From Apostichopus japonicus (Eukaryota > Echinodermata > Holothuroidea > Aspidochirotida > Stichopodidae), in NCBI RefSeq assembly GCF_037975245.1, contig NC_092568.1, positions 34,008,501-34,072,500 of the forward strand: a stretch of DNA of 64,000 nt, read 5' to 3'. This document shows, one piece after another, positions 4,076 to 63,867 of the stretch. A program made the translations under genes and the position numbers. Position 1 is the stretch's first letter; each line of letters starts with the position of its first letter. Below the pieces are notes generated by a model. The model ran no database searches. It was not told the DNA's origin and was given only the letters and a program-made list of their open reading frames with translations.

Positions 4076-4092
4076 CATTAGTTATTTGTATT

Positions 4093-20566: not shown

Positions 20567-23500
20567 TAGGCCGTCTTCCATGGCTTGCTTTTCGCTTCCT
20601 TTGCTCACTTTTTAGGGGAATGGAGTTACTGCAGCTTAAAATGCGGAGAATAATCACGAGATTCATAATTTGCTATGCCAACAACACGATTGTTGCACAT
20701 TACTCTGAAAACGCAGTAAAACTGTAGTATTTTAATTGATTATGGGACATGCCTGATTTTGGGCAACTGACCAATCATAGGGCTGCTTCTCGTGACCTCT
20801 TGACCCGGCCCAAACTTATTTTGTTTACATCTACTGTAGCTAGCCTAGGTCACGCACTGTCTGCATATATAGAGCCTGTAGCCCATCCATTGTTCCAATC
20901 TATCGGAGATGGCAGTCCAAATGATCAGAAAACGTTTTGACAAAGGTAAAAATAGAATAACTGTAGAAGCCAAAAAATCGTAAAATATATGTGTTCACTT
21001 GTATGATATTGTAGGCAAATGAGGTCGAAATTTCTGTTGATTAAGTACGTAGGCTTACGCTGCAAAGTTGTAACGCTTAACGCCGGTTGGGATTGCGATA
21101 TTGCATTAGCCTACATTATATATCTGCCTGACCAAAGTCTTCGTTGACGTTAGACTTAGCAAACAATATATATATGCCTATGCTTGGCCTAGTTTATGAT
21201 GTCCTTATAATACGGACGATTGAACGTTGGTACATCCAATGTTGTTTATTCCTAAATTTCTAATCGAGGAATTGCTGCAATGAGCAGGGTTGACTTTCGT
21301 ATCACTTTGTATTGGCGTAGGCCTACGCCTAACGTTAGTTGTTGCTTCTTTTTAGTTTTAACATAATACATAATCAGAACCTTCCTTGGCATGGGCAGGC
21401 CTACTTAACTGATGGTGACGTTAGAACGTAGATGGTATACATGCTCAGACTAACCCTAGTGATTAGCCTTCTGGCATAGACTTATCCTTTTGCCAAATTT
21501 GCTTGATTTATAATTGTAATTACTGTAACTGTACATTATATGCAATAAGGCTAGGCTCTGCACAATTCAATAAGAGACAAAGACGTTTTGATAAAACAAC
21601 CAAGGTTTGTGCAAAGTACCATAAAACCAGGATCTGTTCAAGTGCATTGCACTTGGCCTAGCCTCTATCCTATGGACCAGGAAAGCAGCCACTGTGCTTC
21701 ACTACTCCAGGGTCTCCATATCGACTAGCTATGGTTATGAATGCGTGAACTAGTAAAGTTCCAGCTTTATGTTTTATTTTGCTATTTTCTCTAACAGTTT
21801 GATGATGACTTCTTACAAATGTGCAGTCCATTGTGCTGGGAAGATTGAGTCATTAACAAGGTTCACACCAATCAGTTGGTCTAAAGTTATTTCCTGCGCT
21901 GAGGAATGGTGCAAATTATCTGGCCCACAGTATGATGTTGCTCACGAAGTTCTATCCACCTGCAAAGAACAGCATGACAGCTTTGGGGACATCTTCTACC
22001 ATCGTGATTGCTATGCGGCTTTTACCAACAAAACAGATATTATCAGAGCAAAGAAATGACAGATTTGAGACACACAAAGGAGCGGACACAAGAATGTTGC
22101 TTCACTGTGAATATGCTGCGAAAATGACTTCCAATATCGTCATCAGATGTTTTGGTCATGGCTGTATATTTCTATGATAAGATAGACGCACACCTATACT
22201 TTGAAACAGGATGCGGTAACGGAAAGAGAATTATTGACATTGAGGTGATCTGCAAGGCTTTAGGGACGAGTGTCTCCATGGCCCGCATTGGACCACACAT
22301 CTTCTCTGGGTGTGATTCGGTCAGTGCATTTAGAGGTATCAGAAAGGTAAAGTCATTAAAACTTGCCATTGAAAGTGAGGAGCACTGCACCACTCTACAG
22401 CAACTTGGTGATTGCTTTGATGTGAGCGAATGCTTGGTTGATGCTCTATAGACATTTGTGTGTCACATGTATGGGAAACCCAATTTGGATAAAGTTAACG
22501 AAGCTCGATTTGCTATATTTTGTTCAAGTTCCCGCCTGAAACAAAAATGTCCCCTCCTTGTGAAGCATTTGTAAAGGACTGTAAGAGAGCCAACTACCAG
22601 TCAGCTATTCATAAGAGGAGCCTCGACAACACGCCTGACATTCCATCTGCTGTGGGTCATGGCTGGCTAAAACAAGAAGGAATACTTGTTATTAACTGGA
22701 GGGACAAGAAGCCAGCCCCTCATAGTGTACTAGAGTTGATACGTTGTTCATGCAAGAAACTCACATACAGTGATGGTCAATGTAGCTGTTTCAAACAAAA
22801 TCTTCTATGTACAGATATGTGCCAATGTAGAAATTGTACCAATGAGTTGATTTCACTTTGTCCAGAGCAAATTGAGAGTGATGATGACTCTTGATTCCTA
22901 ACAAAGAAGGGTAAATATATACCAATGAGATGGGTCTAGTCAGGGGCTATACTTGAGGAAAAGGCATAAAGAAATCCCATGAATTATTTATGTCAATTTT
23001 AAAGATTCGAACAAACGCATTTTATTGTAAAATCGGGTAGTTTTGATTTTATTGATAACTGTTGCTTACCATACAGTATCAATTATTTTCATTACTAACT
23101 ATGTAGGCCTTTAGCAAATCTCACTCACTAGCCATGATATTTATTTACAGAGTCATCATCATAATTTGTTTAAAAAAAAGTATCAGCTATTTGCAAGTAC
23201 CCTATGTTGTTGAATTTTTGGCTTTTAAATGTGAAACTAAGTGGGGATATACCTTAATTGGTGAACAAACAGTAATGCACATTGATGAAAACTATTCATT
23301 CTAAATGAAAAACCAACTTCCCACTTCATTTGACTTAAAGCTTTACATGCAGTTGATGTGTTTCAGCTGGAGAACATATGCTCTATAATATGTATCGATC
23401 ATCAATTCCTGACCACCAGAAATCTTATTGTACCACAGAAACCAAAGTAAAGTTGTAATGAAACTGGTCTCAATCAAGAAAAACAAAATCATACCAAGTT

Positions 23501-43444: not shown

Positions 43445-44150
43445 GAGGACTGTGCAACTGGTAAATTTCAGAAATTTGATGCATTGACGAGATCCACTAT
43501 CTCGTCAACACGTCAATTTTCTGAATTTTGTCATTTGGCGAGATGGTAGTAAGTGTGCAAATCGTAAATTTGCATGAAAATAGATGCATTGACGAGATCC
43601 ATTATCTCGTCAAAGCGAAAATTTTCTGAATTTTGTCATTTTGTCGAGATGGTAGTAACTGTGCAAATGGTCAATTTGCAGAAAATTGATGCATTGAAGA
43701 GATCCGTTATCTCGTCAAAGCGTCAATTTTCTGAATTTTGTCATTTTGTCGAGATAGTAGTAACTGTGCAACTCGTCAATTTGCAGAAAATTGATGCATT
43801 GACGTGATCCGTTATCTCATCAAAGCGTCAATTTTCTGAATTTTGTCACTTTGTCGAGATGGTAGTAAGTATGCAAATCTTGAATTTGCAGAAAATTAAT
43901 GCATTGACGAGATCCGTTATCTCGTCAAAGCGTCAATTTTCTGAATTTTGTCATTTTGTCGAGATGGTAGTAACTGTGCAACTCGTCAATTTGCAGAAAA
44001 TTGATGCATTGACGAGATCCGTTATCTCGTCAAAACGTCAATTTTCTGAATTCTGTCACGTCACCATCTCGTCAACTCGTCAATTTGCAGATAAATGTCG
44101 TTTTGTCAAGTTGGTAACTCGTCAATGCAATGTCCCTTCTACGCTTCCGT
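43445..44150. repeat. GACGAGATCC/ATCTCGTC minisatellite, unit about 106 bp, six copies
   Basis: Unit starts (GCATTGACGAGATCC) lie near 43480, 43585, 43692, 43797, 43901 and 44008. Every unit carries GACGAGATCCGTTATCTCGTC, an 8-bp inverted pair around five bases. AATTTTCTGAATTTTGTCA, GAGATGGTAGTAA and CAATTTGCAGAAAATTGATG follow. The array ends CCCTTCTACGCTTCCG, the inverse of the left edge of the 25.2-kb copy. The long open frame through it follows from the repeat length and is not evidence of a gene. Confidence 0.95.
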
Positions 44151-45270: not shown

Positions 45271-47714
45271 GAACCAAGAATTTTCCATTAGTTTTTTCCA
45301 CCCATAACCTTTATGAAGATTGTCATCAGTCACATATCATGTTCGACCTTATCGCATCTCCTGTGGAACATTGCTTTTGTAAGTAATTCTACGTTGCGGT
45401 CCACAATACCCGTGCGCACCATTTTTCAAGGTTTTAGGCCTATTATTTGTTCAGAATTTTAAAAATTCACAATTCTCGTAAATAGATTCACTTCAAAATA
45501 TGTTGCACAAAATTTCATCTATGGACACCAATATAGAAAAACCTCCTTCAGGTAGCATTCGCCCATTAAATGCCCCATTGACAAACACACTAAATCACAA
45601 ATGTAATGTGGTCTTTAAGTCTAGATAGAAGTTTTCACCAGCTAAACGCTACCCATCACCGGATAGCTGACAAATTGGCCTTTCATGGCACCATCAATTT
45701 TCCGTATTATGACCATGTAGATTTTTTTGCTATCCGAGCCGGAAGTTTTCGTCACTTGTAAACAAATCTCTTCACTCGGTGGTAAAAAAAAAAAATCCTA
45801 CGCTGCTCCCGGGAGGCCTAAAGGGGTCTAAAATTGCCTCAACTGACCCAATTTTCTCACCATATGTATATCCATTCATGCTCTTCAACATGAAAGCCAC
45901 AAAAAAACTATATCATGATTGATAACAGGTCACAAAAATGTTCTCCTGCTGCTTTTTTGGCACTTTTCATGAAGGAGAACAATCGAGTGGATGGATATAG
46001 ACTCTACTGTATGGAGTATAATGCAGACTACTGTACAAATACAGTTATCAAACCTAAGCATAGGAGCCCATAGGAGTTGGCCCCACATTGTTTTCATTTC
46101 GAAAGACAGTTTCAATTCCATTACACACTGAAGGCTTCGATTCTCTATCTGCCTTCAGTTAAGGGAAGATCTTGGGATTTTCATCCCTAGATATCGCTAG
46201 ATATTGCTATATAGATGTCCATACAGTACAGTGCCCTTTGGATTTTTCGGGGCCTGATCTTGGGAAATTGCAAAAAGTCGAGAGTGGTCTCACTCCATGT
46301 AGGTCAGTGCACGACCTCTAGACGTCACTAATACACTTCCCAATCACTTGTTATCGATGAAGTGGTGTGTTGCCGGATTTTGTCAAGAGGTCTTGGTACT
46401 ACGGGCGAAGGTCATTAATTAAGTTTCGTAACTCATCGCGAAGCGATGAGAGGGGTGGGGCGTAGGGTTATGGGCGCGCGTTTTCATGCAGATGGGAACA
46501 ATCTCAAGAAGTGGTGGGTGCGTCCTCCTTTTTTTCTTTTTCTTCTTTATCTTTTCCCTTCCTTCCTCTCCTTCCTCCTCTTTTCCCTCCTCTTTTTCTT
46601 ACCCGGGGGGGGGGGAGCGGCCCCAACGCCCCCCTGGATACCCGCCTGCATGTGAATCAGTACAACGAATGATTGAAAACAATACATAGGTTATTGGAAG
46701 CTGATATCTAGCATTTTCTGGGGTTTTATTCTGGCAAATCTAGCCAGGCCAGGTCATGACGTCATTCCGCGCCAAATTTGATATCTGTTTTTACATTATC
46801 ACGTACTGCATGTCGGATAGACGTGACTTCCTACTACGTACTACTACGAACTGCACTAGTGAGATTGTTTTACTACAATATAACTGGAGTTGGTGATTTT
46901 AAACGTCAAACAAAATAAAAGCGACTGTGAGTGTTGTCAGTACATTTTACCGCTTGAAGGCACTATGTTAATTAACGTTAAATTGACTCAGTGATAAAAA
47001 ATAATGGCTGCTTAGACCTAGCCTATACATAACATAGTATTGCATACGCAAACAATTAGGCTTACTAATACGTACTAGCGAGCATATTGCCACACAGTAC
47101 TAGTAGTAGTACTAGCTACCACCTGTAGCTGTATAGCCTGGCTTAGGCTACGTAAACTTAAAAAGAATATTGTGTAGCATACAATTAGTTTACTTTTCGT
47201 GTGAGGTTGAATAGTGGTTTGTATACCAGGGAGGAAGCACCCCTCCTTTTTTCTCATGTCACTGACATGCATTGAGCTGTAGCCTATAACAGTTTTGTAG
47301 GTAAGCAGCTAGTGGTATTACATACTACTATTACTAATCAAAGTGGTAGGCCTACTGTACAGTTAAAGACGAAAAGAGATGTCAGTAACATTATAAACGA
47401 TCTTTCAATTTCACTGTGAGTGTCTACTTCCCTCAAGCAACCCCCCATACTCACTGTTTTACCGTTCATTTGATAGTATATATGATCCTTCCTCCTCTTT
47501 TCCTCCTCTTTGTTTTCCTTTTTTTCTTCTCTTTTTTCTCTCCTCTTTTTCTTACCAGGGGGGCGTGCGCCCCCAATCCCCCCCCCCCCTTGGATACGCG
47601 CCTGACACTCGTACTAGTTCATAGAAATTTCAAATTGCAAATTAAAAGATACATGAAAACGATGATATACAGCTCGAGGAATGTGTGAAACCGGCTTCAG
47701 CAACAAAAGACTTA
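45271..47714. other. No gene recognised; unpaired hAT-like right ends
   Basis: Two T/C-rich tracts each precede a poly-G or poly-C run and a CCTGGATACCCGCCTG-like or TTGGATACGCGCCTG end, near 46540-46648 and 47490-47604. They look like two right ends of one family. Otherwise there are only short unsupported frames and several TACTGTA/TACAGTA words. Confidence 0.45.
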
Positions 47715-47800
47715 TAAATGGGACGGCTTCTGCATTTGAGCAGCGATCTCCTAGTGGACGGTCTCTGAGTAGACGGCGCCTCACGTTGACCCTTTAGTGT
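47715..47800. repeat. CTCAGAGACCGCT-type degenerate repeat, right arm
   Basis: It holds GCATTTGAGCAGCGATCTCC and GACGGTCTCTGAGTAGACGG, the inverse of words in 44740-45010. Confidence 0.6.
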
Positions 47801-50025
47801 TCCCATACACAGCTACAGTAGTTTGGGCAGTACTCCCTCTATTTTTATATACTGCCCCTTGGCACCAAATCATATCAGCTGACCAGGAAATATATAAACG
47901 CGGGAAAACTGGACGATTTTAACTGTACAGCACTTACTTCCGTCAGAGGGCCAATAACAACAATCACAAGCATTTTGTTATTTTTCGGTCAGTTTTTAGT
48001 TGATTATTTGTATCCCAATTAAAAATTTTGAAAGCTTGTTTGCACCTATACTTATCGAATAGATAAATTCAATAATCATGATAGAAAGCAAATGGTCTTA
48101 TGTAGGCTAACAGTAACAACACTAACAGTAGCACGGTGTAACACTTTATGAATATGAGGAAACAAAAGGCTACACTTAGACCGAGTGTAGGTTGCAATTT
48201 AGGGTCTTAGGCCGGCTACAGTAGCTTAACCCTAAAGCGCTGTTAAGTTGGGATTCGCCAATAATAAAGTTGGCTCAAATTGAATACATCAACACGATGA
48301 ATTTATGTTTGTAACCTAGTTTAAAAAAAAATCACCACTTAGCCTAGATTTTTGTTACAACTATAGTAGTCTAGCCTTGTACAATAGTACCACTACTAGT
48401 ATTGTGGTAGGCCAAACAGGTTAAACGTGAAATTGTTCATAGTACTACAGTACAGGTATAAGGGCCTTTTTACAAATTTTATGGATATTCCAGGGATGGG
48501 TCTTAACATACAGGCATATTTCTGGGGGACGCATTTCATTTGGGGATGGCACATAAAACACAGGGACAGCCGCGAAATCAGGGACGTCTAGTCCTCTTAG
48601 TCTTACTAAGCCAATTCTATGTAAATTCTTTGGTATAGTTTAGGCTACTGACACATGATACTACAATTGCTTAGAATTAGGTGGGTCTAGATAGCTTTGA
48701 CACAGTGGTAGATACGTGACTATTGTCCCTAGGCCTAGCCTGTATACAGTAGGCTCATCAAATTTGCAACGCGACTATATAGCGGCAATTTTCCCTAGCA
48801 TATGCCGCTTGTAGACATAATCTACACGTAAATATGTGGTCACAGTGCCTAGATAGCTTCAACATGGTACTGTGGATACGTGACATTTGCCTCTAGCAGT
48901 ATGGTAAATGCTAAATATTGGCTGTGAATAGGGTTACCCTAGCTAAGTTAGTGTTTGTATGAAAACACATGATACATATTTACTAATTATCCAAAAAGTC
49001 ACATCTAAATCGTCACTTAAAGACACAATCTATACTAAATAATGCTGTTTAGGCTTGACAACTAATTAAATTGTCACGTGACATCAGCAGTTACCCCCAG
49101 CACTCAGCTTTCAGACATCATCAACATATAATGTACATGGTCACAGTGCCTAGTTAGCTTCCAGTATATAAGTGACAACTGTCTCTAACTGATCCGTATT
49201 AGCAATTTATTGGTCATGAAAACTGTTAACTTAGTTTGTGTATTGACAACACAAGAACAAGATCCATACTAATTATCCACAAAATCAGTGTCTGTAAGTT
49301 TATAGACACAATCTACACTTAACATTGCTCCCTCGCAAATTTCAAGTACTGTATGATCAATGTCACAGAAAGCTTCTTAGGGTGGGCCTAGTGCAGGTTT
49401 TGATGTAACTGTTACAGCAGGCCATGGGGATGCAATTTCAAGAACATTTTCATACAGTAGCTTTATTTCTAGTAGAGCCTAGGCCCCGAAAGCTTCTTCC
49501 AAGATCCAATGTAATGGTGACATTGCAGGCTATAATACAGTATTTACAGTACTGTATGCAATTTGTTGTCACAGATAGTGATTGTTGTCAAGTTGTGGCA
49601 GATTAGAAATGGCACTAACAGGTAGGACTTAGTGGAAGTCATATGATTTCACAGATTCAATGCACATGCAAAAACAAGCAAAATGTTGAAAAATCATGTC
49701 CATTCCAATGCTTGTAAATTCGTTTTTGGCCATCTACAGTAGGCCTACAGTGCAGATAGTGTTCTGGATTTGCTCATCAAGAGTTGGTAACCCTTATTCC
49801 AAAGAATATGGGGTTGTGCTGATAAAGTGAAACACAGTAGGGTTTACTGGGAAAAGAATGCTTGGATTCAATGCTAGTTTTTGGAAATACTTCTGTGGTT
49901 GGCTGAAAACTGAATTTTTTATTTACTATATGACTTTGTATGACGTAATAATTTTATAGGGAGGAATACATAATTAATAATTCAACCAAGCAAAGAAAAG
50001 AAGGATATCAAGCCATGATCTAGAT
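47801..50025. other. No gene recognised upstream of gene 2
   Basis: AT-rich sequence with many TACTGTA/TACAGTA words and GGCCTA words. A promoter or non-coding first exon of gene 2 could lie here, but none can be pointed to. Confidence 0.4.
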
Positions 50026-50428
50026 AAGGGTTGTCCAACCTACGGCCCGCGGGCCACAGTCCGTCCCGCCGCAGGGTTGCGTCCGGCCCATCAGAGATGC
50101 TCTACGGTGCGAAATTTTAGTGAGCAGATTTATTGATAACAATTTGAAGCTATATACTGTAATCAATCATTCGAACCTTCTGGGTCCAAAAAACTGCATA
50201 CAGGTCAGTTTGTGTGACACTCTCTCGGAGGAGGGGGGGGGGCGGCTGAACTTTATTCATCTGTTTTATCAGGAAGGAAAATAAGTCAGTGCGCTCCACG
50301 CGCAGTGCTCACATTTTGTTGCCTTGGGCTTCGGGCAAAAATCGAAAAATCGAGCGTAGGGTTCATGCGGCCCCCTCCATCATAATCATTCCATGTGGCC
50401 CTCCTCTGCAAAAGGTTGGACAACCCTG
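50026..50428. mobile_element. 403-bp hAT-like MITE
   Basis: The left end is AAGGGTTGTCCAACCT and the right end is the inverse of CAGGGTTGTCCAACCT. Flanks are ATCTAGAT and ATCTACAT (50018-50025 and 50429-50436), 7 of 8 bases alike. The interior is GC-rich near both ends (GGCCCGCGGGCC; GCGGCCCCC) and has no coding capacity. Confidence 0.85.
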
Positions 50429-50719
50429 ATCTACATGTAGATATTTCAAAATTTTACTGTAGTACCATGGCAAATCACACAAAAATGCCCACAATCTTAA
50501 ATGTTGCTGAAAGATAAAATTGAGCAATTTGAGTTTAAATTTATCATCAATTGAGCAGATAAGTTCTCAGTTTGTGTGCTGGAAAAACTAATATGATCTA
50601 ATGCAAAAGTTTAAGCCCTACATGTCTTCAAAATTTCACCTGACTACCTTAGTATGTAATATTTTATGTATAACAAGTTGTCTCAGAGAATTGTTCAACT
50701 ATTTGTTGCTGTTTGACAG

Positions 50720-50791
50720 GAAATGGATAACAAGAAAACAGAAGCAGGTGAATGCACAGAAGAAAATGGGAACTCTTTTGATGAGAGACAA
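50720..50791 (+). CDS. Gene 2 exon 1 with start codon
   Basis: The acceptor is TGTTTGACAG and the donor is CAA/GTAAGT. An ATG at 50723 (GAAATGG, a strong initiation context) opens MDNKKTEAGECTEENGNSFD followed by ERQ, ending in phase 0. The peptide is acidic and disordered-looking. Upstream 5' untranslated sequence must lie on at least one earlier exon that I could not find. The next exon starts in phase 0. Confidence 0.55.
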
Positions 50792-51429
50792 GTAAGTCTT
50801 TAATTGAAAATGTTTATAAGCAAACATTATATCTGAAAACTTCCCACTTTAATAACTTTGATAACAAAATTTGTTTACATTTACATATTAACATTTTGAA
50901 AGTAGGGTAGCAGGGCTTGACATACAGTGCAGTACCAGTACAGCACTACAGTACCAGTGGTCCAGGTAGGTACAGTACTGTACCAATAATGTTCAGAAAG
51001 AGTCATCCGACATAGTTCGGTCCAGGTACTGTATCAAAATTTGTTGTGTCTCCTAGCATCCACTTGTGCTAAAGTTGTCATCTGCGATTCTGCGATCTGA
51101 TGGCCTACTGTACACTAGATTTGACAACAAGGTTCAGTCACATTAGTTGGTAAGTTTGCTTGGTTTCTTGAGTAGACTGTGTTCTGACTTCTCCTCCACA
51201 TTTGTTGATGTGGTCATGTTTCCAGCGTAGAAAGGCCTTGTTTGCCAGGGATGGGTTGCACTTAGCTAATACTGGGGCCTCGTTGTTTGGTACAGTAGGA
51301 TCTTGAATTACTCTGTGGAACAGCTATGTTTAAACTTAATTGGGCGGGGCGATGAGGGCAGGCATAAACTTTGATAAGGATAATGTGTCGGGTGGAGGTG
51401 CTTATGGGCCTTTTGATCACAAGGAAAGT

Positions 51430-53315
51430 GGTAGTAATAGTTCTAACATTATCAGGAGGCGATGCTAAGGTACAGAGTTTCAGGGATAAGCTGAAGATTG
51501 TTCTTATCAATGCTAGAAGTATTTTAAAAATTTTGCTGAATTTGCTGTTCTTCGTCAAGATCTGAATCCTGATGTGCTTGGTATCACAGAATCTTGGTTA
51601 AGGGATGACATTCATAGCGCTCACTGCTCAGGTTTCTTACCCAGGGTATGTTGTGTATCGTCAGGACAGGAGGGATACTCATAATGCAATTGGTGGGTGA
51701 GTTTTACTGTATGTTAGGGATGATACAGTATTGTAAGTGTTGAGAAGTCTCAGTTACAAGGTTCTTTTGTCAATTCTGTCTGGTGCGAGGTATCCACAGA
51801 CAACTTCAAGAGATCCAGTGATGTTACTGTATAACTATTGGTGTTGTTTGCTCCTAACAGTGGTGAAGATAACGATGGCTTGCTGTTTGATTCAATTAGA
51901 AAGGCTGCTAAAAGTGATGTTGTTATAATGGGTGACATTAATTTTCCTGACATTAATTGGATAGATGGTTCCAGTGGTAGGAACGGTAGTACCTTTCTAG
52001 ATGTTGTGCAAGATTGCTTTTAACATCAGCATGTTACTTCCCCTACGTAATGTTGTTGATTTGACAGGTCTAGGAAAACTAGCGATCATGATATACTGTA
52101 CTAGCTTCTGATGTTGTTTACAAGGTCGTAAATTATTCTGTTAGGTCTAGATTTCCAGAAGACTTTGATAAAGTTCCCTATTAGCATCTTTTACATAGGC
52201 TGAAGAGTGTGGGTGTCAATGGGAATTTACTGGCTTGGATGAAGAATTGACTTGGTAATATTTAGGAAACAGAGGGTGGTAATTAAAGGCTGTGCTTCTT
52301 TTTGGCAGGACATTACTACTGTAGTGAGTTCCAGAAGGGTCTGGTTTGGGTCTCTTGTTGTTTGTTGCCTATATATGACATTGACGGGATATTTTGTGTA
52401 GAGCCAAGAAGTTTGCTGATGACAGCAAACTGTATTCTGAGGTCTCTTCTAAAACAATTCTGAGAAATTTCAAATGGATAATGGATTTGGGTAAGGTTTT
52501 TTCCTGGTCTCAGGGATGGCAAATGCTTTTTAATATTGGTAATTGCAGGGTGATGCATATTGGTAGTAGTAACCAAAAGTATACTGTACCTACACTCTTA
52601 GGTTGGTGAGGAGTTGCAGGAGGTCTTTGTTGAAAGAGAGCTAGGTACAGTATCTACATTGACTTACCTCTGCAACTTCTAAACATTGTCTTGAAGCTGC
52701 TAAAAGAGGTAATAGGGTTTTAGATATGATCAAGAGGAAGGTCAGTGTCAGAAAGATGACATAGTTGTTACTGTAGGCTTTATAAGCAGTTGGGTAGGCC
52801 TCATCTGAAGTATGCTGTGCACTGCAGGCCCGCTTGTAACCCATATTTTGCTAAGGATAAGAAAGTGCTTGAAAAGGTCCAGAGGAGGGCTAATACTGTA
52901 GGATGATTAGTTCCTTAAAGAGTGTTCCTTATTACATGCAGTTACAGCTGCTGAATCTCACCACACTGGAGCTTAGGAGGTTACATGGTGACATGATTCA
53001 GGTTTTCAAGATTGTGTATGGTTTTGACAATTTATCCTTCACTGACTTTTTCATGTTTGCTAATAGTAGGTGTACCACAGGTCATTGTCTTAAACTCCAG
53101 AAGTTACAAAGTAGGACTTATTATATTCGGCTTACCTTTCATTCTAATAGGGCTGTGAATGAGTGGAACAGTTTACCAGAGAAAGTTGTACTTGCAAGTA
53201 GTGTCAATGAGTTTAAGAATGCTTTGCACAGCACTTTAAGCATTGTAATCAGATCTGATTTCTTTTGTGTCTTCTTTTCTTTTCTCTCCTATATGGTCAT
53301 TCATGGGGATTGAGT
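51430..53315 (+). pseudogene. CR1-like LINE relic (endonuclease to RT end) peppered with 5-bp insertions
   Basis: In order: KVQSFRDKLKIVLINARSI, then DLNPDVLGITESWLRDDIHS, SVWCEVSTDNFKRSSDV, KAAKSDVVIMGDINFPDINW, TSDHDI, DFDKVPY, RLKSVGVNGNLLAWMKN, KKFADDSKLYSEVSS, SQGWQMLFNIGNCRVMHIGS and LGRPHLKYAV. The LNLTTLELRRLHGDMIQVFK frame ends near SNRAVNEWNSLPEKVV with a stop at 53315. This is the endonuclease, FADD-type RT and tail of a CR1-like element. The middle RT part is deleted. Nine of the frame breaks are TA(C A/T G TA) insertions, whose removal restores codons. It sits in intron 1 of gene 2. Confidence 0.9.
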
Positions 53316-54248
53316 GTCCCTCCTGATCCTTTTTTTCTACTACTGTAAGCTAAACCAAACTAAGCCTAAAAAATGGCACAGCAAAAATGCCATTTGGTCG
53401 GTTCCAATGGTGAAGGGCATCATGGCAATAAGAAGGGTATGACGGCAAAAATGAGTCCGAGGAAGTGCACTGAATAGGATTTTTTGTCTACGCAGCACTA
53501 TGTCATTTTGGGAGCAGTAAAAATATCTTATTGGACCATTTTATTTTGGAGACAGCAAAAATACAAGTCTCAGACAAGACATGATTGTTCTTTTTCCAGA
53601 ACGAAAGTTTGTTTACAGTTTTATGAAAAAAAAATCATGGCAGTGAATGACAACATTTCTCAAAACTCCATAAAGTTTTGTATATATTGCGATTGATGGT
53701 ATGTAGAAAATGCCTCATAAAAGGAGGTTTTTGGCCACCTTCAGTGTACTATATTGCTATTCTGACATGAAACATTGTTTTCTTCATGTCTTTGTGTTAA
53801 AGAACTTCATACTGTCCTATTGTTGTTAATGTGTGACACTGAAGCCTGGGCGGCTATCACTATATTCGACTGTTTCAGGGTAACAACAAACTTTTTAAAT
53901 TAAGAAATTACTATTTAATACAAGTTTATGAATGCTTTTAAACACATACAGTAACATACTGTGTTTAACCCATTCCCTGTGATAAATGGAGTAAGTTTGC
54001 ATATGGAGGGAATGCTCCGTGAACAACCTCCATAAAAAGTCAATGGGAGTTTACTGTAATTTCCCTCGCATACAGACAACTCCAACAAAATCTCCCCAAG
54101 ATTGTTGGGTAACACTCTATACTTAGTGTAACGTAGTGTACATAGACATGTACAGCACTGAAAGATAGCTAGAGCACTGACATTTAATGTAGTACTAGTA
54201 TCTCATAATATGCAGATAGCTGTCATTGCATTTTCTTTTTTTGTCAAG
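53316..54248. other. Intron-like DNA of gene 2
   Basis: No gene recognised. Several TACTGTA/TACAGTA words. Confidence 0.4.
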
Positions 54249-54339
54249 GAGTCATCAAACAGTGATATGACGATTATTTGTGTGTCCGGAAGGGACAACA
54301 ATGTTTACAGTCACTGCACCTTCATATATCCTCAAGGAT
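54249..54339 (+). CDS. Gene 2 exon 2
   Basis: The acceptor is TTTTTGTCAAG and the donor is GGAT/GTGAGT. Phase 0 to phase 1. It encodes ESSNSDMTIICVSGRDNNVY and SHCTFIYPQG. The MTIICVSGRDNN strand is placed like the opening strand of gene 1. The domain is not otherwise recognised. Phase agreement with both neighbours supports it. Confidence 0.55.
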
Positions 54340-56099
54340 GTGAGTATTATACTACTGTAGATTTACTTTTGTTCTAAACTTTATGTAACCTATTAATTTG
54401 TTGAACATGCAAGCTCTGGGCGGCCATGTGGGCAAAAATTACAACGATGAAACAAGTAAACAAGAAAGAAAATTGAAAAAGAAGAAATATGCAAAATGAA
54501 ACAAACATATTTGATATCAATGTAAAACTTGTGAAAGGCTGCACTTAAAAAGAGAAATAAAAATAAAAATACAATCATGTAGCGAAACATATCAAACACA
54601 TGCAACCGAAGGATAAACATTGAGCACCAGGAAGAAAAAATTGATCCACTTGTCAGAACAAAAAGATCAAATCACCACCATAAAAAAATAGATGTATTGA
54701 AATCAAAAGTTCATTCGCACGAAATCAAAACGAACGCTCACACGCAAAACGAAGAAGTGCTCAGAACAAAAAGAACAAGCGTCACCATAAAAACGAAGAT
54801 GTAACATAATCAAAAGAACATTGGCACAAAATCAAAATGAACGTTCAAGTGAAACGAACGAACGCCTATTAACTAAAAAGGACAGATGCTGCTGTTTTGT
54901 TTACTTTGACTGTGTTATATTACATTAAAATGTAGTTACGACATCTTGTATGCACGACATTGCTGTCTTATGTAAGTTCAGGCCTAGTTAGGCACTTGAT
55001 ACCTAGATGTGAACATATATACAGTATTGTTCACATATATACAGTACATACAAATGACATAACATTGTCTCTATTAAAGCCTATATGTGCTTAAAATACT
55101 GTACACTGTATGCATGTATGTATGTGATGCAAATTTATTTCCAGCACTTGCACAATAGCTCAAACAGTGCAGGTTGTTTGAACATAAGAGTAACTGCAAA
55201 ACTCCAACTCTTGGGTCTACTATGGAGAGACAGGAGCTGTGTTGAGTCAAAAGGGATACGAGAATATACAAATACATTGCCATTGAAAGACTCAGTTGGG
55301 ACAAGATCATCCAAGTGCACTATGAATTTGATTGTGATTTCCCGGGTACTCTGTGCAAAATGCAAACCTTGGTTCGATTTCATACTTACTAGAACACTGT
55401 GCTGGCCTTCCAAGGCCATTGGCAGACCTTGAAATATCTCTTTAGTAAACTTTCGAAAACTATTTACCATCTAAAATTTATCAGAACCCAGTTCTAAGCG
55501 TAAAATTCTTGCAATGGCAATGTCTTTTTAACTATATGTCCGATTTAGTTCATACCTGATACGGTGATGTCAGTTGATGATAGGCACATGGTCATATAAT
55601 CAAGAATTCATTCTCAGTATTATTCATGAATGGGCGTGGCTAGATTGTTATCACAGTGAAATGTAAACATGATATCTCGAAACCAATCAGTTGAATCAAG
55701 GTCATACTGGGTAGGTTACAGTAGGTACAGTAGATGCCTCGTGATGTGTAATGGTGGTTCCCATCTCATGAATATCAATGAGTGGGCCATGCCTGACAAA
55801 ATTCTTAAAATTTCAATTTATCTTCAACAGTACTGTATGTATGATGTAGTTTATGGTATTGTGATGTAATAACATGTTAAGAATATATGCTTTTTACAAC
55901 AACAAGTTTGACCTCATTAATATTCATGAGTTTTTAATGTAATCATTATGCTAGATTGGACCAACCTGTCAAATGTCATGGTATACATAAAATGACAAGA
56001 CACCTGTGATTAATAAGCCCTGGAAGAGCAGGTCTTCCTCATATTATGTGATAATGTAGCAAAACTATTAAATCAATGAAATGTATTTCCCGGTTTCAG
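54340..56099. other. Intron-like DNA of gene 2
   Basis: Contains a stretch near 54660-54860 with loosely repeated AACGAA and AAAATCAAAA words, and many TACTGTA/TACAGTA words. One minus-strand frame is listed separately. Confidence 0.4.
55135..55470 (-). CDS. Unassigned minus-strand open frame, possible exon
   Basis: The frame starts at ATG 55470 directly after an acceptor-like TTTTAG on the minus strand. It reads VNSFRKFTKEIFQGLPMALE, then HSVLVSMKSNQ, then FIVHLDDLVPTESFNG and SWSFAVTLMFKQPALFELL, and ends CKCWK. The 111-codon frame has balanced, protein-like composition, unusual for chance frames here. I recognise no domain. It is antisense to gene 2 and could be an exon of a separate gene or a fossil of a mobile element. 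The plus strand is also open, so a chance frame is possible. Confidence 0.3.
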   Translation of the reverse strand: MVNSFRKFTKEIFQGLPMALEGQHSVLVSMKSNQGLHFAQSTREITIKFIVHLDDLVPTESFNGNVFVYSRIPFDSTQLLSLHSRPKSWSFAVTLMFKQPALFELLCKCWK

Positions 56100-56140
56100 A
56101 TGACCCAACCATTATTTTGGTGGCCAATCACATGTCCTGG
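56100..56140 (+). CDS. Gene 2 small exon
   Basis: The acceptor is CGGTTTCAG and the candidate donor is TGG/GTGCAA. Phase 1 to phase 0. With the split codon it reads YDPTIILVANHMSW. Phases agree with the exons at 54249 and 56325. The donor is weak and the frame stops about 11 codons further if unspliced. Confidence 0.4.
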
Positions 56141-56324
56141 GTGCAAGTCTGGCAATGGGAGGGATGTTGAACGAAATGGAGGTGCACCTAGCTTCTAAAC
56201 ACAGATTTTGGTGGGAGAGATTCTAGTAGAAAGATTCTGCTAATCTGGTATAGAGGGAAAATGTGGTATGAACCAGTGAGAGCCTTGTACATAATTGTAA
56301 ATAGTAGTGTTAGCTGTTTGTCAG

Positions 56325-56367
56325 TTTACACCTCCTACTTCTGGACAAGCAGAATCATTGAAGGCTG
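56325..56367 (+). CDS. Gene 2 small linker exon
   Basis: The acceptor is TGTTTGTCAG and the donor is GCTG/GTACTG. Phase 0 to phase 1. It encodes FTPPTSGQAESLKA. Ser/Pro/Thr-rich, like the linker exons of gene 1. The next exon has a related ending (SSKAG), so the two may have arisen by exon duplication. Confidence 0.45.
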
Positions 56368-56571
56368 GTACTGTTGGTGCATTTGAGGGAAAAGGAAAGT
56401 TACAAATATTTGAGGGAATTGGATCCCAAAATTTGGTATCTAAAGTTTTTTAGTAGGTATACTGTACATTGACTTAACTTTTGTAATGAGATGTACAGTA
56501 AGTAGTGTCTGCAAAGTAATGACAAAATCTCTTGACCTTACCTTTATCGTATTTCCTCTAATTACCATTAG

Positions 56572-56625
56572 ACAGAGAGCTAACACCTTCTCCTTCTTTG
56601 GGACTAGCAGGATCATCGAAAGCAG
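56572..56625 (+). CDS. Gene 2 small linker exon, related to the preceding one
   Basis: The acceptor is ACCATTAG and the donor is GCAG/GTAATG. Phase 1 to phase 1. It encodes DRELTPSPSLGLAGSSKA. The same TPxxSxxxAxSxKAG pattern and the same border phase at the 3' end as 56325-56367 suggest tandem duplication of a linker exon. Confidence 0.5.
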
Positions 56626-57253
56626 GTAATGTTGGTAAGTTTGAGGACAGAGTAACGGTAAGAGGTATTGCAGGTGAATACTGTAGCTTGAAAACCAGAA
56701 TTTTAGCTATGAAGTTGTAGCTAGGGCAGTTTTATTTTGGTGGGCACGCAATTAAAGTTCTGTTAAACGTTGTTACGTAGCAGACATGCCTTAGTAGGGC
56801 AGCTAGTGCCAACAGAAGTTCCTGTGTTTTACAGTTTTTTAGGGTTAAGGAACCCAGAATTTCAAACCTTTTTGCAATTTGATAAAATATGCAACTACAG
56901 CAAGCATCTTATCAAAGGTACATAATAAGTTCTGCTCAGGACAGTGTAGCACGCAATCAAGGAGTAGTCTACATTGAGAGACCATTTGCAAGAAAGCAAT
57001 TATCCAAACAAGAAATATGTATGGCATATGGGGCTCAAATTTAAAGATTGCCGGAGGCGACCAAAAATCATGTCGGACAACTAAAGCCCTGCTTAGGTTG
57101 TCCGACGGACGACTAGCTAGCTTATTTGCCGTAAGTGTTCGACACTTTGAGCAAAACTTGGAAAAAACCCTATTCTTTGAAATAAAAATCCATATTAGAA
57201 ACAACGGAAGAAATAAATCACATTTTGCTACTATCCATAATGTGGGGTAAATA
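56626..57253. other. Intron-like DNA of gene 2
   Basis: Words GGTTGTCCGACGGACGAC and GGACAACTAAAGCCCTG near 57073-57113, and GGTTGTCCCGAGGACAACC with GAGCCCTGG near 58843-58873, look like ends of another hAT-like family. They cannot be paired by target duplication. Confidence 0.35.
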
Positions 57254-58268
57254 TAGTGTTTGCACGGGGTATCCAGGTACCTGCCCGACCAATACTTCCC
57301 GGTTCCTAATTTATTATCTAAATCCTATACAAAGTGTTATTTTTTTGGCAAACCGATGGTTAGGCAAGATTTTCCCATTCACTTAGTTTGGTGTTAGGCT
57401 ACCATGTGGTCGAAGATAATAGCAATAACGAAAGTGTACTATGGATGTTTTATAACTGCGTCACAATTTCAGCGATATAAACGGATGAATAGGCTAGATT
57501 ACCCCATTGACTTAGTGTGGTGTTATGCAACCATGTGGTCGAAGATAATAGCAATAATGAAAGTATTCCATGGATATCTTATAACTGCGTCACAATTTCA
57601 GCGATATAAACAGATGGTTCGGCTAGATTTCCCCATTGACTTAGTGTTAGGCTGCCATGTGGAAAACATTGAAAGAATTCTCACAATTATTTATTCATTT
57701 GTTTATTTCATATTTAAGAAAGATGAAAAAGAATTTTACGAGATGTTACTAATGGATTATAGACTGGATAACTAAAAAATAATAATCGCAAGTTGCATTT
57801 TTACTAAACGTTTATTGCAAATGCCATCAAATTGCGTGAATCGCGCAATCTCGCGGCTACTGCTAACCCAGGGCCTGCATAATAGATAGTAGTAGTAAAT
57901 ACTGTTTAAAGCTAAATTGGATATTTGTATGGTCTGATCCAATAGAAGCGGCGAGCAAACATAAGCAGCAGCGGCAGTGCGATGTTAGTAGTGATGTTAA
58001 TTATATGAAGTTATTATCAAGTTAATGAAAGAAACAAAAGCAAATAGAAATTATTGAGGACGGTTTTATACCTTATCTTACACCTACGTATTTGAACATG
58101 AAAACGTGTCAGTGGAGAATATAATTCATTTATTATAGCATCCAATATGCATTTTCTTGAAAATCGCGATACACAAAGGTAGATATAATTGTTCCGGGTA
58201 CCCGAATACCCGACTGGTAACGGCTCTTGGGTACCCGGTTCCCGATTTTTGGACCTGTGTAAACACTA
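57254..58268. mobile_element. 1015-bp hAT-like element, GGTACCCG-rich family, copy 1
   Basis: The ends are TAGTGTTTGCACGGGG and the inverse of TAGTGTTTACACAGGTCC. Flanks are GGTAAATA and GGTAAATC (57246-57253 and 58269-58276), 7 of 8 alike. The inside has a repeated block of about 125 bp (CCATTGACTTAGTGTGGTGT, ACCATGTGGTCGAAGATAA, ACTGCGTCACAATTTCAGCG), two to three times. Near the right end is the GGGTACCCGAATACCCGAC type. No coding capacity. Copy 2 lies inverted at 62684-63867. Confidence 0.85.
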
Positions 58269-59310
58269 GGTAAATCCTTCACTTTAGCTGTATGTGCATA
58301 CTGTACATATGCCCTTATGTGTGCTTCGTAACACTACAGAGTACAGAACCTGGCGGCCGCGACCAGGATTGCTTTCTACCTCACAGCCGCACGCACGTAA
58401 GACTTGCGAGTTGGAGTACAACGTGTATGCAGAACTATACTGTGCATGTGGGCATACCTTATGCTCGTTTATGTTGCTGCATATATGTGCTGTATACCCT
58501 GGGTTTACCCTCTGTCTCTGGAAATGATTACAGAAATCATTTTTCACTACCAGAGAATTCCCTCAACCCAACAAAATTAATCATGAACAGTGTCATACAC
58601 CACATAAAATGTCTATAACCCTACACTACAAGTTCTGTCCAAGATCTGTCAATCTCCATAAGACTAGTCACTAAGAGTAAGGTCGGTAGACTAGGCCTGG
58701 GTAGCCTAACATTACGGTGCTCGATACATTTGAGTATTATTTATGTACTACTCTTGTGGAAGGCGCGCCATTTTAAAAATCCAAGTGCTTTCATTTCGAC
58801 AAACAAAAGATCCTTCGGACAACCAAATGTGAAGGCAAGGTTGTCCCGAGGACAACCTTAAAATGAGCCCTGGGGCCGGCCTGGGTATGTGGCCATTGTA
58901 GTAGAATGGTCTGCTACAGTGCTACAGATACAACATTTATTATATACCAAACATACCTGGAGGTCGGGATTTGACTTATAGATGTATTTATTAACAGATT
59001 CTGGAAAGTGGTATAAACCAGACACTTATCAACAATTGCACATCCATTGTGACAAGTGTTTAGAATTCACAAGTACTGTACTTCTGGTAATGATAATGTG
59101 ATCTTTTGAAGTAAAAAAAAAAATTGTTTTTGTCCGAATATTTGATGTATGTCCTTGGAAAGTTCTTAATTCTTGTGGTTTTGAATTATTTGGAAGGTTA
59201 TGTTTTTGACTTGTAATCAATTTTTTTTTCATGACTGTCAGTACAAATCTTCAATTTAAAAAATTTAGGTTATGTAGTGAGCTATAGCTGTAAGCCTATT
59301 GTACCTACAG
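58269..59310. other. Intron-like DNA of gene 2
   Basis: No supported feature apart from the possible hAT-like end near 58843-58873. Confidence 0.35.
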
Positions 59311-59381
59311 GAAGCTTACTTGCCAAATTTGTTAACTGGTAAGGTATCCTTACCAGTTAACAAATTTTGCAAGTAAGCTTC
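59311..59381. repeat. 71-bp hairpin 1
   Basis: The two 34-base arms are complementary with one mismatch around the loop TAT. The left arm runs from GAAGCTTACTTGCC to GGTAAGG and the right arm returns to GTAAGCTTC. On RNA it would fold as a long stem of the size of a microRNA precursor. Confidence 0.9.
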
Positions 59382-59453
59382 TAAATTAGGATGGAGGGTT
59401 GGTGAATTAGATGGTGTACACCATCTAATTCACCAACTTCCTATCCTAATTTA
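59382..59453. repeat. 72-bp hairpin 2, directly adjacent to hairpin 1
   Basis: 36-base arms begin TAAATTAGGAT and meet at the palindrome GGTGTACACC. About four mismatches lie between positions 5 and 20 of the arm. There is no spacer between the two hairpins. Confidence 0.9.
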
Positions 59454-59659
59454 GCCATGACCTACAAGCATTAATCTGCTTTTGTTTAACAGATACAGTT
59501 AAAGGAGTATTTGTTACCGTGTTGCTCTTCAAAATTATTCATTTAATTTTAGTTAACTTATTTTGAGCTTGTAACTTAATGGGAATTTGCTATCGAAAGT
59601 GAAAACAAATGTAATGATCTGTTGATCTATTGACAAAACATGTTTCATTGTAATTACAG

Positions 59660-59730
59660 TTAAGGAACCTAAAAGAAGAGCACCTATACAAAAAGAAGAT
59701 GAAGCGCCTCCAAGGAAAAAGAAGAGAGCA
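59660..59730 (+). CDS. Gene 2 exon: basic linker, last one in the window
   Basis: The acceptor is TAATTACAG and the donor is AGCA/GTGAGT. Phase 1 to phase 0. It encodes VKEPKRRAPIQKEDEAPPRK and KKRA. PKRR and PRKKKR look like nuclear-localisation clusters. Position, phases and donor equal those of the gene 1 exon at 28220-28293. If the genes are paralogues, the next exon, beyond the window or hidden by the repeats after 60 kb, should carry the GW-GGG domain. Confidence 0.6.
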
Positions 59731-60158
59731 GTGAGTATTTTGTAGTACTTTTGTGAGATCTAAGAAATTTCAGTATCCCTAATTTATAATTAGTCTTTAC
59801 ACCTTTAGTTCCTTATATAATGAATCATAGTTGTTTTCAAATGCTTCTGGCTGCCGACTATTACTTGATAATGATCCAAGTAAAATACTTTCAAAGGCAC
59901 TTCAAACTGAAGTTCATATCATCACTTGATCACACCTTACAGTATAATCATAAAATTAGCATAATAACAAAGTGCTTGAAGTACGGTATGTGCAAGATAA
60001 CCAAGAGTACATGATCATTTCAAGATTAAGAAAAACCCAAAATAAATTGGTGATGTAGTCCATGCATGACATACAGAAACCGTATTGCACAATGCACCCA
60101 TCCAAATAAAGCTACTGTACAGTTATGTTAATATGGGCAATTCCACAGTAACATTGGA

Positions 60159-62613
60159 GGGCAGGTCCAAGCTACAGTATTGTATCCCTAGAAGCCAAAT
60201 TTCAAACTTTACTGAAGCACCCTAAATGTGGTGTCATGTTAAAGCTGAATTATTGAAATTTCAGATTTTCATAATTTTTTTCAATTGGTTTGCCTATTCG
60301 AACAATTACAGCCGGCTAATTTGCATAAATTCAAATTGCAGTGTGACGTATGGGACATTTGGAAACCTATTTCCCTGCCAGCAATATGAACTTATTGAAT
60401 ATCAGTTATGTGAGACATGATACACCCTTCCTTCCAATAAGTTTGGCATATTATGTTTGGGGGTTCATCAATTAAATATGCTAATTAGCTAGTGTCCAAA
60501 TACTGATGTCCCGTACGTCACAATTTTGGTCACTTTTTTCAAGTTTTGATATGGACGAACAATTTTTTTTGGGTGATATTCTGTAAAGTTCTATTTAAGA
60601 ACATTGTTCAACAAAATCCATCCCAAAAAAAGTGAAATAATATTCACAGCAAATCTAATTATCAAAATTAACGGGACAAAATGTGACGTACGGGACATAG
60701 TGTGGGGGAAACCCTGTATTTATACATAATGAACATGCATGGGCTCCAATGGGGACCTCTACTGGAAACCTTCCAATGCTTACAAATTTATTTGGTTGAA
60801 AGATGGTAGTTGTAACTTATAATCCCTGCATGCCTTGCCTGAAGAGCACATCATGGCTTCAAATAAACTATTGACCAATGACTACCAACAGCCCAGGTGT
60901 TATTAAATAAACTATCTGGAAGTCAATTGTGTGTGTGTGTGGGATACAGAATCATTTACAATGCTATTCATTGAATAGCAGAATAGTATTCAACATTGAC
61001 ATTGAATGAGGACGACTTAAAGTGTTGAGTTTGCATTTCAACATTTCGTAGGCCTATTGTGAAGTGTGACTATCATGACTGTGCAACTATGTTATTGTGT
61101 CCTGAACTTAGATAGTAGACATTGAGATTTTTAGTTACAAGTGTAGAGTTTCGCTCGTCCAATTTTTGCAGAGGACAATCACTCATGAGTTTGTTCAATA
61201 ATCAGTATAAGGTCTATAGAGTTTTCTTTGTTGTACTAGTTTCATAGTTGGACATTACGTGGACGTTACTGTGGACATTTTGATATGTTTTGAATGGGAT
61301 GGATCATATTTCAACTTAAGGGTCAATAGTGGGGAGTATGATACAGTGTTGTACAGTATATACCGAAACAGTTTTTGCATCAAAACTTTGCATCTTGAAT
61401 CATTTGTGGTCTATTAAACAAAGCTAGAATTGATGTTATGAGTATTTGGTCTGGTAACCAGTATTAGGTCTATAGAGTTTTCTTTGTTGAACTAGTTTCA
61501 TAGAGGGACATCAGTGGACGTTACTGTGGACATTTTGGTATGTTTTGATTGGGATGGATCATATTTCAACTTGAGGGTCAATAGTGGGGAGTATGATACA
61601 GTGTTGTACAGTATATACCAAAACAGTTTTGCATCAAAACTTTGCATCTTGAATCATTTGTGGTCTATTAAGCAAAGCTACAGTAGAATTGATGTTATGA
61701 GTATTTGGTCTGGTAACCAGTATTAGGTCTATAGAGTTTTCTTTGTTGTACTAGTTTCATACACAGACATTATGTGGACGTTACTGTGGACATTTTGGTA
61801 TGCTTTGATTGGGATGGATCATATTTCAACTTGAGGGTCAATAGTGGGGAGTATGATACAGTGTTGTACAGTATATACCAAATCAGTTTTGAACCAACAT
61901 TTGCATCTTGGATCATTTGTGGTCTAGCAAAGCTAAAATTGATGTTATGAGTATTTGATGAATGTGTAGAGTAGATTTATACTTTACGCATTCCATGTTT
62001 TATGTAGTGGAATGATCTCACAAGTACAGTCACTGCTCTTTTCGATCCCCGAAAGAAGGAAATATGGCATGAAATTACCAATGACATTGTTCTGGCATAT
62101 CCAAATTAATGTTTTTATGTAGAAATCAGCTTGTTATGGTATATTCAGGAATGAAAATATGAGTTTTCATAGGCAATTTTTATTTGGACAAATTGTCGCG
62201 TACGTCACATGTCCCGTACGTCACAGGACAATTTTCATTTGTGTAATCACTGAACTGGAATGGCTTCATATTTTTTTCTAATATGTTACAGCTTATCCCT
62301 TGGAAGGTTAGGCTATTCACTAGTTATAACAGCTTGATCACTGCCCTCCTAATTTCAGAGGGATTTCAGCTTTGCTCTTTAGTAAAAAAAACACAAAATC
62401 CTCTGGTCCCGTACGTCACACTGTACATTAATTAAGATGGGACCTAATTAAAGCAAGTGTAGTAAATCTTCATGAGTTTGTTATAAAGTAGCAGCAATAA
62501 CAAATATGAAAACCTGAAAAAGTGTCTGGAAAATAGATTTTTTATAACTTTTAGACACATTTAAGTCTCTGAAATGTCCCGTACGTCACAGTGCAAATAG
62601 CTTGGACCTGCCC
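60159..62613. mobile_element. 2.45-kb repeat-bounded segment with seven GTGACGTACGGGACAT motifs
   Basis: The left edge GGGCAGGTCCAAGCTA (60159-60174) is exactly inverted at the right (62598-62613). Within lie motifs at 60343 and 60683 (plus sense), and at 60506, 62195 (partial), 62209, 62405 and 62574 (minus sense). A tandem of about 257 bp occupies the centre. No coding frame and no clear target duplication. It may be a non-autonomous transposon whose motifs are subterminal transposase sites. Its nature is inferred. Confidence 0.6.
61205..61960. repeat. Three tandem copies of a unit of about 257 bp
   Basis: Units start at AGGTCTATAGAGTTTTCTTT near 61210, 61466 and 61725. Each contains GGACGTTACTGTGGACATTT, GGGATGGATCATATTTCAAC and TTGTACAGTATATACC. 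Copy 2 has an extra CAGTA at 61681 (AAGCTACAGTAGAATTG against AAGCTAGAATTG in copy 1). Confidence 0.95.
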
Positions 62614-62683
62614 TGGAACCCTTTGGAACCCAAGTGCAAATAGTTGCAACAATGTAATGATTCATAGCAGAGAACTTTCAAAT

Positions 62684-63867
62684 TAGTGTTTACACAGGTC
62701 CAAAAATCGGGAACCGGGTACCCGAGAGCCGTTACCCGTCGGGTATCAGGGTACCCGGAAAAAATTGTTTACCCTCGTGTATCACGATTTTCAAGAAATT
62801 ACATATTGGATGCTATAATAAATGAATTATATTCTCTACTGACAATTTTTTCATGTTCAAAAACGTAGGTGTAAGATAAGGTATAAAACCTTCTTCAATA
62901 ATTTCTATTTTTTTGCTTTTTTCTCTTTCATTAACTTGTTAATTACTTAATATACTGTAATTAACATTACTACTAACATCGCACTGCCGCCGCTGCTTAT
63001 GCTTGCTCTCCACGTTTATTGGATCAGACCATATAAATATCCCTTTAGCTCAGTTGTTACTACTTCTATCTATTATGCAGGCCCAGGGTTTGCATTAGCC
63101 GCGATTCGCGCAATTTGATCGCATTTGGAATAAACGATTAGTAAAAGGCCACTTGCGATTATTTATTTTAGTTATCCCGTCTATAATCCATAAACATGTC
63201 GTAAAATTTCTTGTCAGCCTTTCCTTCTATGAAATAAACGAATGAATAAATAATAATTTCTTCCACATGGTAGCCTAACACCACACTAAGTCAATGAGAA
63301 ATCTAGCTAGGCCTAACTATCTGTTTATTTGCTGAACTTGTGACACAGTTATAAGATATCCATGGAACACATTCATTATTGCTGTTACGTTCGACCACAT
63401 GGTTGCCTAACACCACACTAAGTCAATGGGGTAATCTAGCCTACAGTAGAGCCATTTGTTTATTAGCTGAAATTGTGACGCAGTTATACGATATCCATGG
63501 AATACTTTCGTTATTGCTGTTATCTTCAACCACATGGTAGCCTAACACCACACTAAGTCAATGGGAAATCTGCCTAACCATCGGTTTGCAATTTTTTTTT
63601 TGTAATCACACTTTGCATAGGATTCGGGTAATAAATTAGGAACCGGGTAGTATCACGTCGGGCGGGTACTTTCGTTATTGCTGTTATCTTCAACCACATG
63701 GTAGCCTAACACCACACTAAGTCAATGGGAAATCTGCCTAACCGTAGGTTTGCAAAAAAAAAAAAAATTAAATCACACTTTGCGTAGGATTCGGGTAATA
63801 ATTTAGGAACCGGGTAGTACCGCGTCGGGCGGGTACCCGGGTACCCGGATAACCCGTACAAACACTA
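62684..63867. mobile_element. 1184-bp hAT-like element, GGTACCCG-rich family, copy 2 (inverted)
   Basis: The left end is TAGTGTTTACACAGGTCC and the right end is the inverse of TAGTGTTTGTACGGG. Flanks are TTTCAAAT and TTTCAACA (6 of 8 alike). The inner block of about 125 bp (CACCACACTAAGTCAATGGG, ATGGTAGCC) occurs four to five times, more than in copy 1. That explains the greater length. It carries two 5-bp CWGTA insertions absent from copy 1. Confidence 0.85.

Follow-up and report, generated by a model that had tools for sequence, protein, structure and literature searches.

Excess of TAC(A/T)GTA in a dense patch and across the genome of Apostichopus japonicus: likely excision scars of Tc1-type transposons

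A dense patch of TACWGTA words

The DNA stretch considered here (the window) comprises 64,000 nucleotides of the genome of Apostichopus japonicus (C8:34,008,501-34,072,500, in an assembly of 671,581,487 bp and 35 contigs). It contains 75 copies of the seven-letter word TAC(A/T)GTA, further written as TACWGTA, compared with a mean of 11.0 and a maximum of 21 in 100 dinucleotide shuffles. With high confidence, the word can be described as being in excess both locally and genome-wide, with some of its copies representing insertions of CWGTA at TA that are likely the excision scars of Tc1-type transposons with CAG...CTG ends. A first-pass annotation of the window had claimed about 55 words in 18 kb, where base composition would predict a handful, and this observation is confirmed; between 45,960 and 63,450, there are 55 word starts, where a first-order Markov model of the region predicts 3.9. 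When words closer together than 30 bp are merged, 47 sites remain. The densest 10 kb (about 46–56 kb) hold 41 words, or 33 when merged in the same way, and three of the words in the thinner part of the cluster (61352, 61607, and 61867) represent one place within a 260-bp tandem unit (Table 1). Among all TA-NNN-TA words of the region, CWG stands far out (z 25.8). The nested words noticed in the first reading are also present. Nine word starts, at 51705-52894, lie inside a broken remnant recognised by eye from frame fragments, which resembles a LINE-type retrotransposon; for the fragment 52894-53313, the only one scanned, Pfam gave no match.

Table 1. Features of the window, in window coordinates
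Feature	Position	Strand	Remark
TACWGTA cluster, core	46005..56685	none	44 words, starts 46005 to 56679
TACWGTA cluster, thinner part	58299..63448	none	11 words, starts 58299 to 63442
Second, smaller TACWGTA cluster	25700..27928	none	7 words
Nested word TACAGTACTGTA	49545..49556	none	
Nested word TACAGTACTGTA	50971..50982	none	
TACAGTA	61679..61685		clean 5-bp difference from two sister 260-bp units (TA at 61425, third unit)
TACTGTA	62953..62959		clean 5-bp difference from inverted copy near 58002
TACAGTA	63442..63448		compared with inverted copy at about 57494: unclean, 7 bp including TA missing or neighbouring bases differ
Broken remnant, LINE-like (putative)	51517..53313	+	

Outside the patch, units of 182 bp and 105 bp form tandem arrays at 4084-6167 and 43449-44058, respectively, and the plus-strand frame at 22499-22894 shows a Tesmin/TSO1-like CXC domain (E 2.4e-5, just above the cut-off).

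Genome-wide excess and clustering

The whole assembly (671.6 Mb) contains 361,456 TACWGTA words (0.54 per kb). The mirror-core control TAGWCTA, of the same composition and symmetry, occurs 75,078 times, and the reversed pattern ATGWCAT 208,554 times. In 20 sampled 10-kb stretches, 124 TACWGTA words were found vs. 17 of TAGWCTA and 34.2 expected (first-order), and for the 264 kb composed of the window and these stretches, the count is 199 vs. 59.4 expected under a second-order model. What remains of the genome total depends on the baseline subtracted: about 247,000 words with the first-order expectation (34.2 per 200 kb), 210,000 with the second-order one (59.4 per 264 kb), 286,000 with the count of TAGWCTA, and 153,000 with that of the reversed pattern; the excess is put at roughly 150,000–290,000. 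The low end is cautious because the reversed word itself reaches 1.3 times its second-order expectation. For the mouse genome, the available part of a published account gives over 300,000 TACWGTA places (PMC4378557).

Sequences that differ from the word by one mismatch are also in excess (1,117 vs. 1,000, ratio 1.12), mostly through transitions (1.27 vs. 1.04). This fits a steady production and decay of scars, tempered by the scatter of the controls, of which six words gave 0.89 to 1.07 and the seventh, having TACWGTA among its own neighbours, gave 1.34. Nested pairs number seven among the 199 words, three of them in one run, with 1.8 expected if all TA were equally likely to be hit. Pairs of words at most 30 bp apart show a clear surplus in the sampled stretches (10 vs. 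3.4, p 0.0025) and an excess that is not significant at 45,960-63,450 (8 vs. 5.0, p 0.11).

The sampled 10-kb stretches hold 0–14 words each (mean 6.2, variance 18.5), and the negative binomial distribution fitted to them assigns about 7e-6 to 41 words in 10 kb, a value uncorrected for the choice of the window. The cluster is therefore unusual for this genome, and clustering of a similar kind occurs elsewhere at a smaller scale; a sample of 100 pieces of 2 kb includes one with 9 words. The suggestion that the locus is special holds insofar as the patch is dense, but the words are carried by the whole genome and not by this locus alone. As to the cause of the clustering, a germline site that was accessible for long, or old and undisturbed sequence, can be offered as a guess.

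Insertions at TA and a candidate donor family

Between copies of repeats, a CWGTA insert at TA (CAGTA or CTGTA) was found at six independent sites. The clearest case is a 3.08-kb element with five copies that are 98.1–99.1% identical, in which one copy (L043) carries CAGTA and CAGGTA at TA, both absent from the other four. Similarly, a 9-kb element was compared in three copies (C3, C23, and C20; 96–98% identical), of which the C3 copy has CAGTA, CTGTA, and CACGTA at TA where the two others have none. CAGGTA and CACGTA represent imprecise forms. Three internal comparisons had been put forward in the first-pass annotation as direct evidence of insertion; those at 61679 and 62953 are clean, whereas the one at 63442 was dropped as evidence, its difference from the inverted copy not being a clean 5 bp.

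A table of 504 TANNNTA sites was built from alignments of at least 80% identity, in which partners with more than two mismatches were not counted as clean and homologous copies were counted separately. A clean 5-bp loss in the partner was observed at 5 of 75 CWG sites vs. 2 of 429 others (Fisher p = 0.001). The five are W 61679 and W 62953 (the window), C3 10416, C3 11957, and C23 16347, in coordinates of the joined stretches, and the non-CWG pair consists of a GGC site in L013 and a GTA site in L025. The gains in L043 were found after this test and lie outside its p value. A further comparison, of L031 with L039 (C1 and C17), was set aside; the pair is 99.8% identical over 2.9 kb, for which reason it gave no scorable indels of 3 bp or more, and the element ends lie beyond the stretch.

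The 9-kb element at C3:15817585-15826587 has the ends TA-CAGTGGTGTTACG...CGTAACACCACTG-TA. The repeat terminus TA-CAGTGGTGTTACGTCGAGGTTGACA and its inverse are flanked by TA on both sides and by unrelated sequence in C3 and C23, and the 30-bp ends of the 9-kb copies are 96.7% inverted-identical. An open frame of 356 aa in the C3 copy contains a DDE_3 domain (E 1.8e-20, above the cut-off) with DD34E spacing (34 residues from QDNDPKH to NPIE, counted by hand). Its sole match in a PDB search was the Sleeping Beauty transposase SB100X (E 1.5e-18), and its best homologue, 70% identical, is named Tcb2 transposase of Holothuria leucospilota; the encoding element here differs in its length of about 9 kb and its additional frames. 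Tc1-type elements are compact, of about 1.3–2.4 kb with a single frame. The 9-kb copies with additional frames depart from this and can therefore be regarded as an enlarged Tc1-type variant, and the other copies, of about 3.08 kb, also exceed this size; the one checked for frames (L041) has none above 158 aa, and these copies are thus likely non-autonomous. A further frame of the C3 element, 254 aa long, matches the BEN domain weakly, below the cut-off, and the element contains 18 TACWGTA words, most of them common to its copies.

Genome-wide, the terminus TACAGTGGTGTTACGTCGAGG with at most three mismatches gives 107 matches vs. 3 for a control, and a hand count on the 100 of these 107 matches listed yields at least 28 pairs that face inward, with members as much as 12.6 kb apart. 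Both ends were read for 17 insertions (the five 3.08-kb copies, ten further elements, and the C3 and C23 9-kb copies), and in all 17, the element has CAG/CTG ends and lies between two TA. The C23 insertion interrupts a unit of a tandem array whose sister units keep the empty TA. Another element, C2:25833571-25837383, occupies the first TA of a TACAGTA word, an arrangement predicted for the precursor of a nested word. Five copies, 98–99% identical and located at five different targets, suggest, if only indirectly, that this candidate family was recently mobile. It is the only family for which ends, TA duplications, and recent copies are fully readable.

Profile matches to DDE_3 and DDE_1 number at least 45 and at least 33 in the genome. 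Near the end of a chromosome, at C9:37375603-37464739, 16 DDE_3 matches are spaced mostly about 5.7 kb apart, most of them in a 384-aa frame, and similar ones occur on C12, on C18, and at C9:28.8 Mb. Inverted repeats of the form TA-CAG...CTG-TA were also sought in 294 kb, up to a length of 3 kb, a limit that hid the 9-kb and 3.08-kb elements from the scan; the two matches both fall in a foldback at L025:3050-3340. This almost perfect 291-bp foldback is not a TA element and was rejected as a CAG-ended donor because its inverted repeat runs beyond the CAG ends and has an outer 10-bp direct repeat, TGTCTGAAGC, instead. Among the 100 of 107 matches listed, no TACAGTGGTGTTACGTCGAGG terminus lies near the window, and the chromosome of the window (34.0 Mb) has two termini, at 8.75 and 42.96 Mb, each with three mismatches. 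The idea that the patch arose by local hopping from a nearby donor thus found no support. Local hopping of Sleeping Beauty is given as spanning megabases in the available part of one report (PMC4378557).

Origin of the words

The proposed mechanism follows the overhang-pairing model of Sleeping Beauty. A Tc1-type element would insert at TA and duplicate it, and its excision with a 3-nt stagger would leave a CAG overhang on each side. These overhangs would pair C-G and G-C around a central A-A mismatch, so that end joining and mismatch repair would produce TA-CAG-TA or TA-CTG-TA. The choice between CAG and CTG at the mismatch would account for the W of the word and agrees with the published Sleeping Beauty excision footprint, TAC(A/T)GTA, as given in the available part of the source (PMC3432063). 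No excess is seen for the full double overhang, TACAGCTGTA, in the 264 kb (1 vs. 0.4). The footprint reading of the 5-bp insertions, already offered in the first-pass annotation, is well supported by the CWGTA indels at TA and their match with the published footprint; the excision step itself, and the candidate family or its relatives as makers of most scars, are what we infer. Since scars far outnumber surviving elements, their production was presumably long-running. If scars are neutral, they would accumulate in proportion to the germline excision rate summed over the genome, and an assumed rate of a few hundredths per generation in each genome, kept up for an assumed ten million or so generations, would be enough.

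Taken as a whole, the earlier interpretation is partly supported. Apart from the nearby donor, it fared well in the checks proposed with it: the genome count of TACWGTA and the indel table of repeat copies both revealed an excess, and the search for Tc1-like elements with CAG-type ends led to the TA-duplicating family. It had also been considered that the word could belong to a longer ancestral repeat unit, but base preferences in the flanks are weak, and there is no larger unit common to the words. For these flank logos, words less than 30 or less than 20 bp after a previous word were skipped, and the frequencies pool both sides of each site. After the words are collapsed to TA, A is preferred three bases off (0.41 vs. 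0.31, p 4e-5), T adjoining TA is avoided (p 2e-6), and ANNTANNT is found at 34 of 217 scars vs. 160 of 1549 (p 0.027). The Tc1/mariner element ZB is described as preferring ATATATAT in the available part of its report (PMC7913693).

Several observations weigh against the excision reading. The independent 5-bp CWGTA events number only six, and among 83 aligned words, 58 are common to the copies, 5 are clean 5-bp losses, 8 differ by substitution alone, 4 more are shared in some copies and substituted in others, and 8 are unclear. The L027 pair, read by eye from the sequence, represents a two-base substitution. Genome-wide, TACWGTA exceeds the reversed pattern only 1.7-fold. The numbers of DDE_3 and DDE_1 matches are small, the ratio of some 150,000 or more scars to 107 termini is large, and the trio of empty TA, full element, and scar was not found at any locus. 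At the 17 donor targets, the preference for A is missing (10 of 34 sides) and ANNTANNT occurs in none; the low T next to TA (7 of 34) is their sole agreement with the scars. Because donor targets match the scar flanks so poorly, other CAG-ended relatives may be the main source.

This last point leads to a variant of the excision explanation, in which the scars are of Tc1-type but the CAGTGGTGTT-ended family is a minor contributor, and one or more other CAG-ended families, perhaps extinct, are the main makers. The confidence given to it overlaps with that in the explanation from which it derives, and it falls a little short of an even chance. Besides the A three bases from TA, unseen at the CAGTGGTGTT-family targets, it draws on an old 1.7-kb Tc1-like copy (L032) with CAGTATAAA ends, whose right TA is no longer intact, and on the other DDE_3 loci, two of which, L031 and L032, align with 66% identity over 445 columns. 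However, 17 targets are a small sample, and so far only the CAGTGGTGTT family offers the full set of legible ends, target duplications, and young copies. A more distant alternative is an enzyme, for example a domesticated transposase or an abortive reaction, that adds CWG and TA at TA with no full element ever involved. More than 1,000 excess words per terminus and the missing trio would suit such an activity, but the genome does contain a recently mobile family whose ends are just those predicted, the published Sleeping Beauty footprint has CWG between its two TA (PMC3432063), and a low, steady excision over a long time would probably suffice; such an enzyme is improbable.

Still less credit is due to the proposal of TACWGTA as a motif that is functional or ancestral, with the 5-bp differences arising by deletion from one TA of an old word to the other. 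The large share of aligned words common to copies is what it would lead one to expect. It is difficult to reconcile with words present in a single copy and absent from all four (L043) or both (C3) of the others, with flanks that lack strong conservation, with the rarity of such losses at other TANNNTA words, or with the surplus of one-mismatch neighbours, mainly transitions, that scar decay would give, the scatter of the controls being kept in mind. We regard this proposal as very unlikely, and slippage as the least probable of all, that is, CWGTA as a microsatellite unit spread by replication slippage. A pentamer array at C1:39.3 kb that includes CAGTA, CTGTA, and CATTA, and a short CTGTA run in L024, speak for it, but the large majority of words are single, the seven nested pairs with their one run of three notwithstanding, and a first copy is required before slippage can begin. 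A scar may have been the starting point of the array itself (C1:39300-39880, L040), which also mixes in CAATA and CAGAA.

A second class of words, TA-GSC-TA, follows at a distance, with 12 vs. 1.9 at 45,960-63,450 and 69 vs. 20 in the 264 kb. Among TA-NNNN-TA words, TAGGCCTA leads (5 vs. 0.2 and 37 vs. 2.1, respectively), and a clean GGCTA indel at TA was seen in L013 near 2967. The same pairing rule applied to GGC ends would give GGC or GCC; TA-GSC-TA words are thus possibly scars of GGC-ended elements, to which TAGGCCTA may also belong. A GGC-ended element was not found.

With regard to known systems, Sleeping Beauty is the closest, leaving the same seven-letter word between TA; its footprint comes from work in which excision was engineered, in cells and in mice, whereas here it is a standing part of a wild genome. 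In fish, ZB (Tc1/mariner) and Passer (pogo) duplicate TA as well, but they belong to other element families, their footprints are given as 0–3 and 0–4 bp, and the available parts of those accounts hold no genome-wide scar census (PMC7913693, PMC9976928). A survey in rice counted insertions and excisions, mariner elements included, between two genomes; its available part gives 94 putative excisions, 8 of them perfect, with insertions exceeding excisions, while in A. japonicus, one short scar type dominates and exceeds the elements (PMC4423477). The kind of event is therefore known, and its scale and dominance over surviving elements appear undescribed as far as the literature search reached; covering the titles and abstract openings of the papers listed, with subscription literature largely outside, it found no description of genome-wide scar accumulation.

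In its widest form, the proposal is that the genome bears 150,000–290,000 scars of the same type, well over 1,000 per surviving element, laid down steadily by rare, hit-and-run Tc1-type elements, that scars were hit again to give nested words and perhaps pentamer satellites, and that a GGC-ended family wrote a second alphabet of TA-GSC-TA and TAGGCCTA, the genome being a tape of jumps. The chances that this picture is right stand about even. The usual census of cut-and-paste transposons takes in the remaining copies, and jumps that leave no copy are invisible to it. If the words are scars, past jumps are tallied in the genome, and the tally could be dated, mapped, and compared with the surviving elements. 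It would also mean that tiny insertions of 5 bp, left by a family with some hundred termini or by families like it, are able to reshape a genome; such insertions would disrupt reading frames and create new TA targets. The ratio of insertion to excision, the outcome of repair, and germline hot spots would then become directly measurable in an animal.

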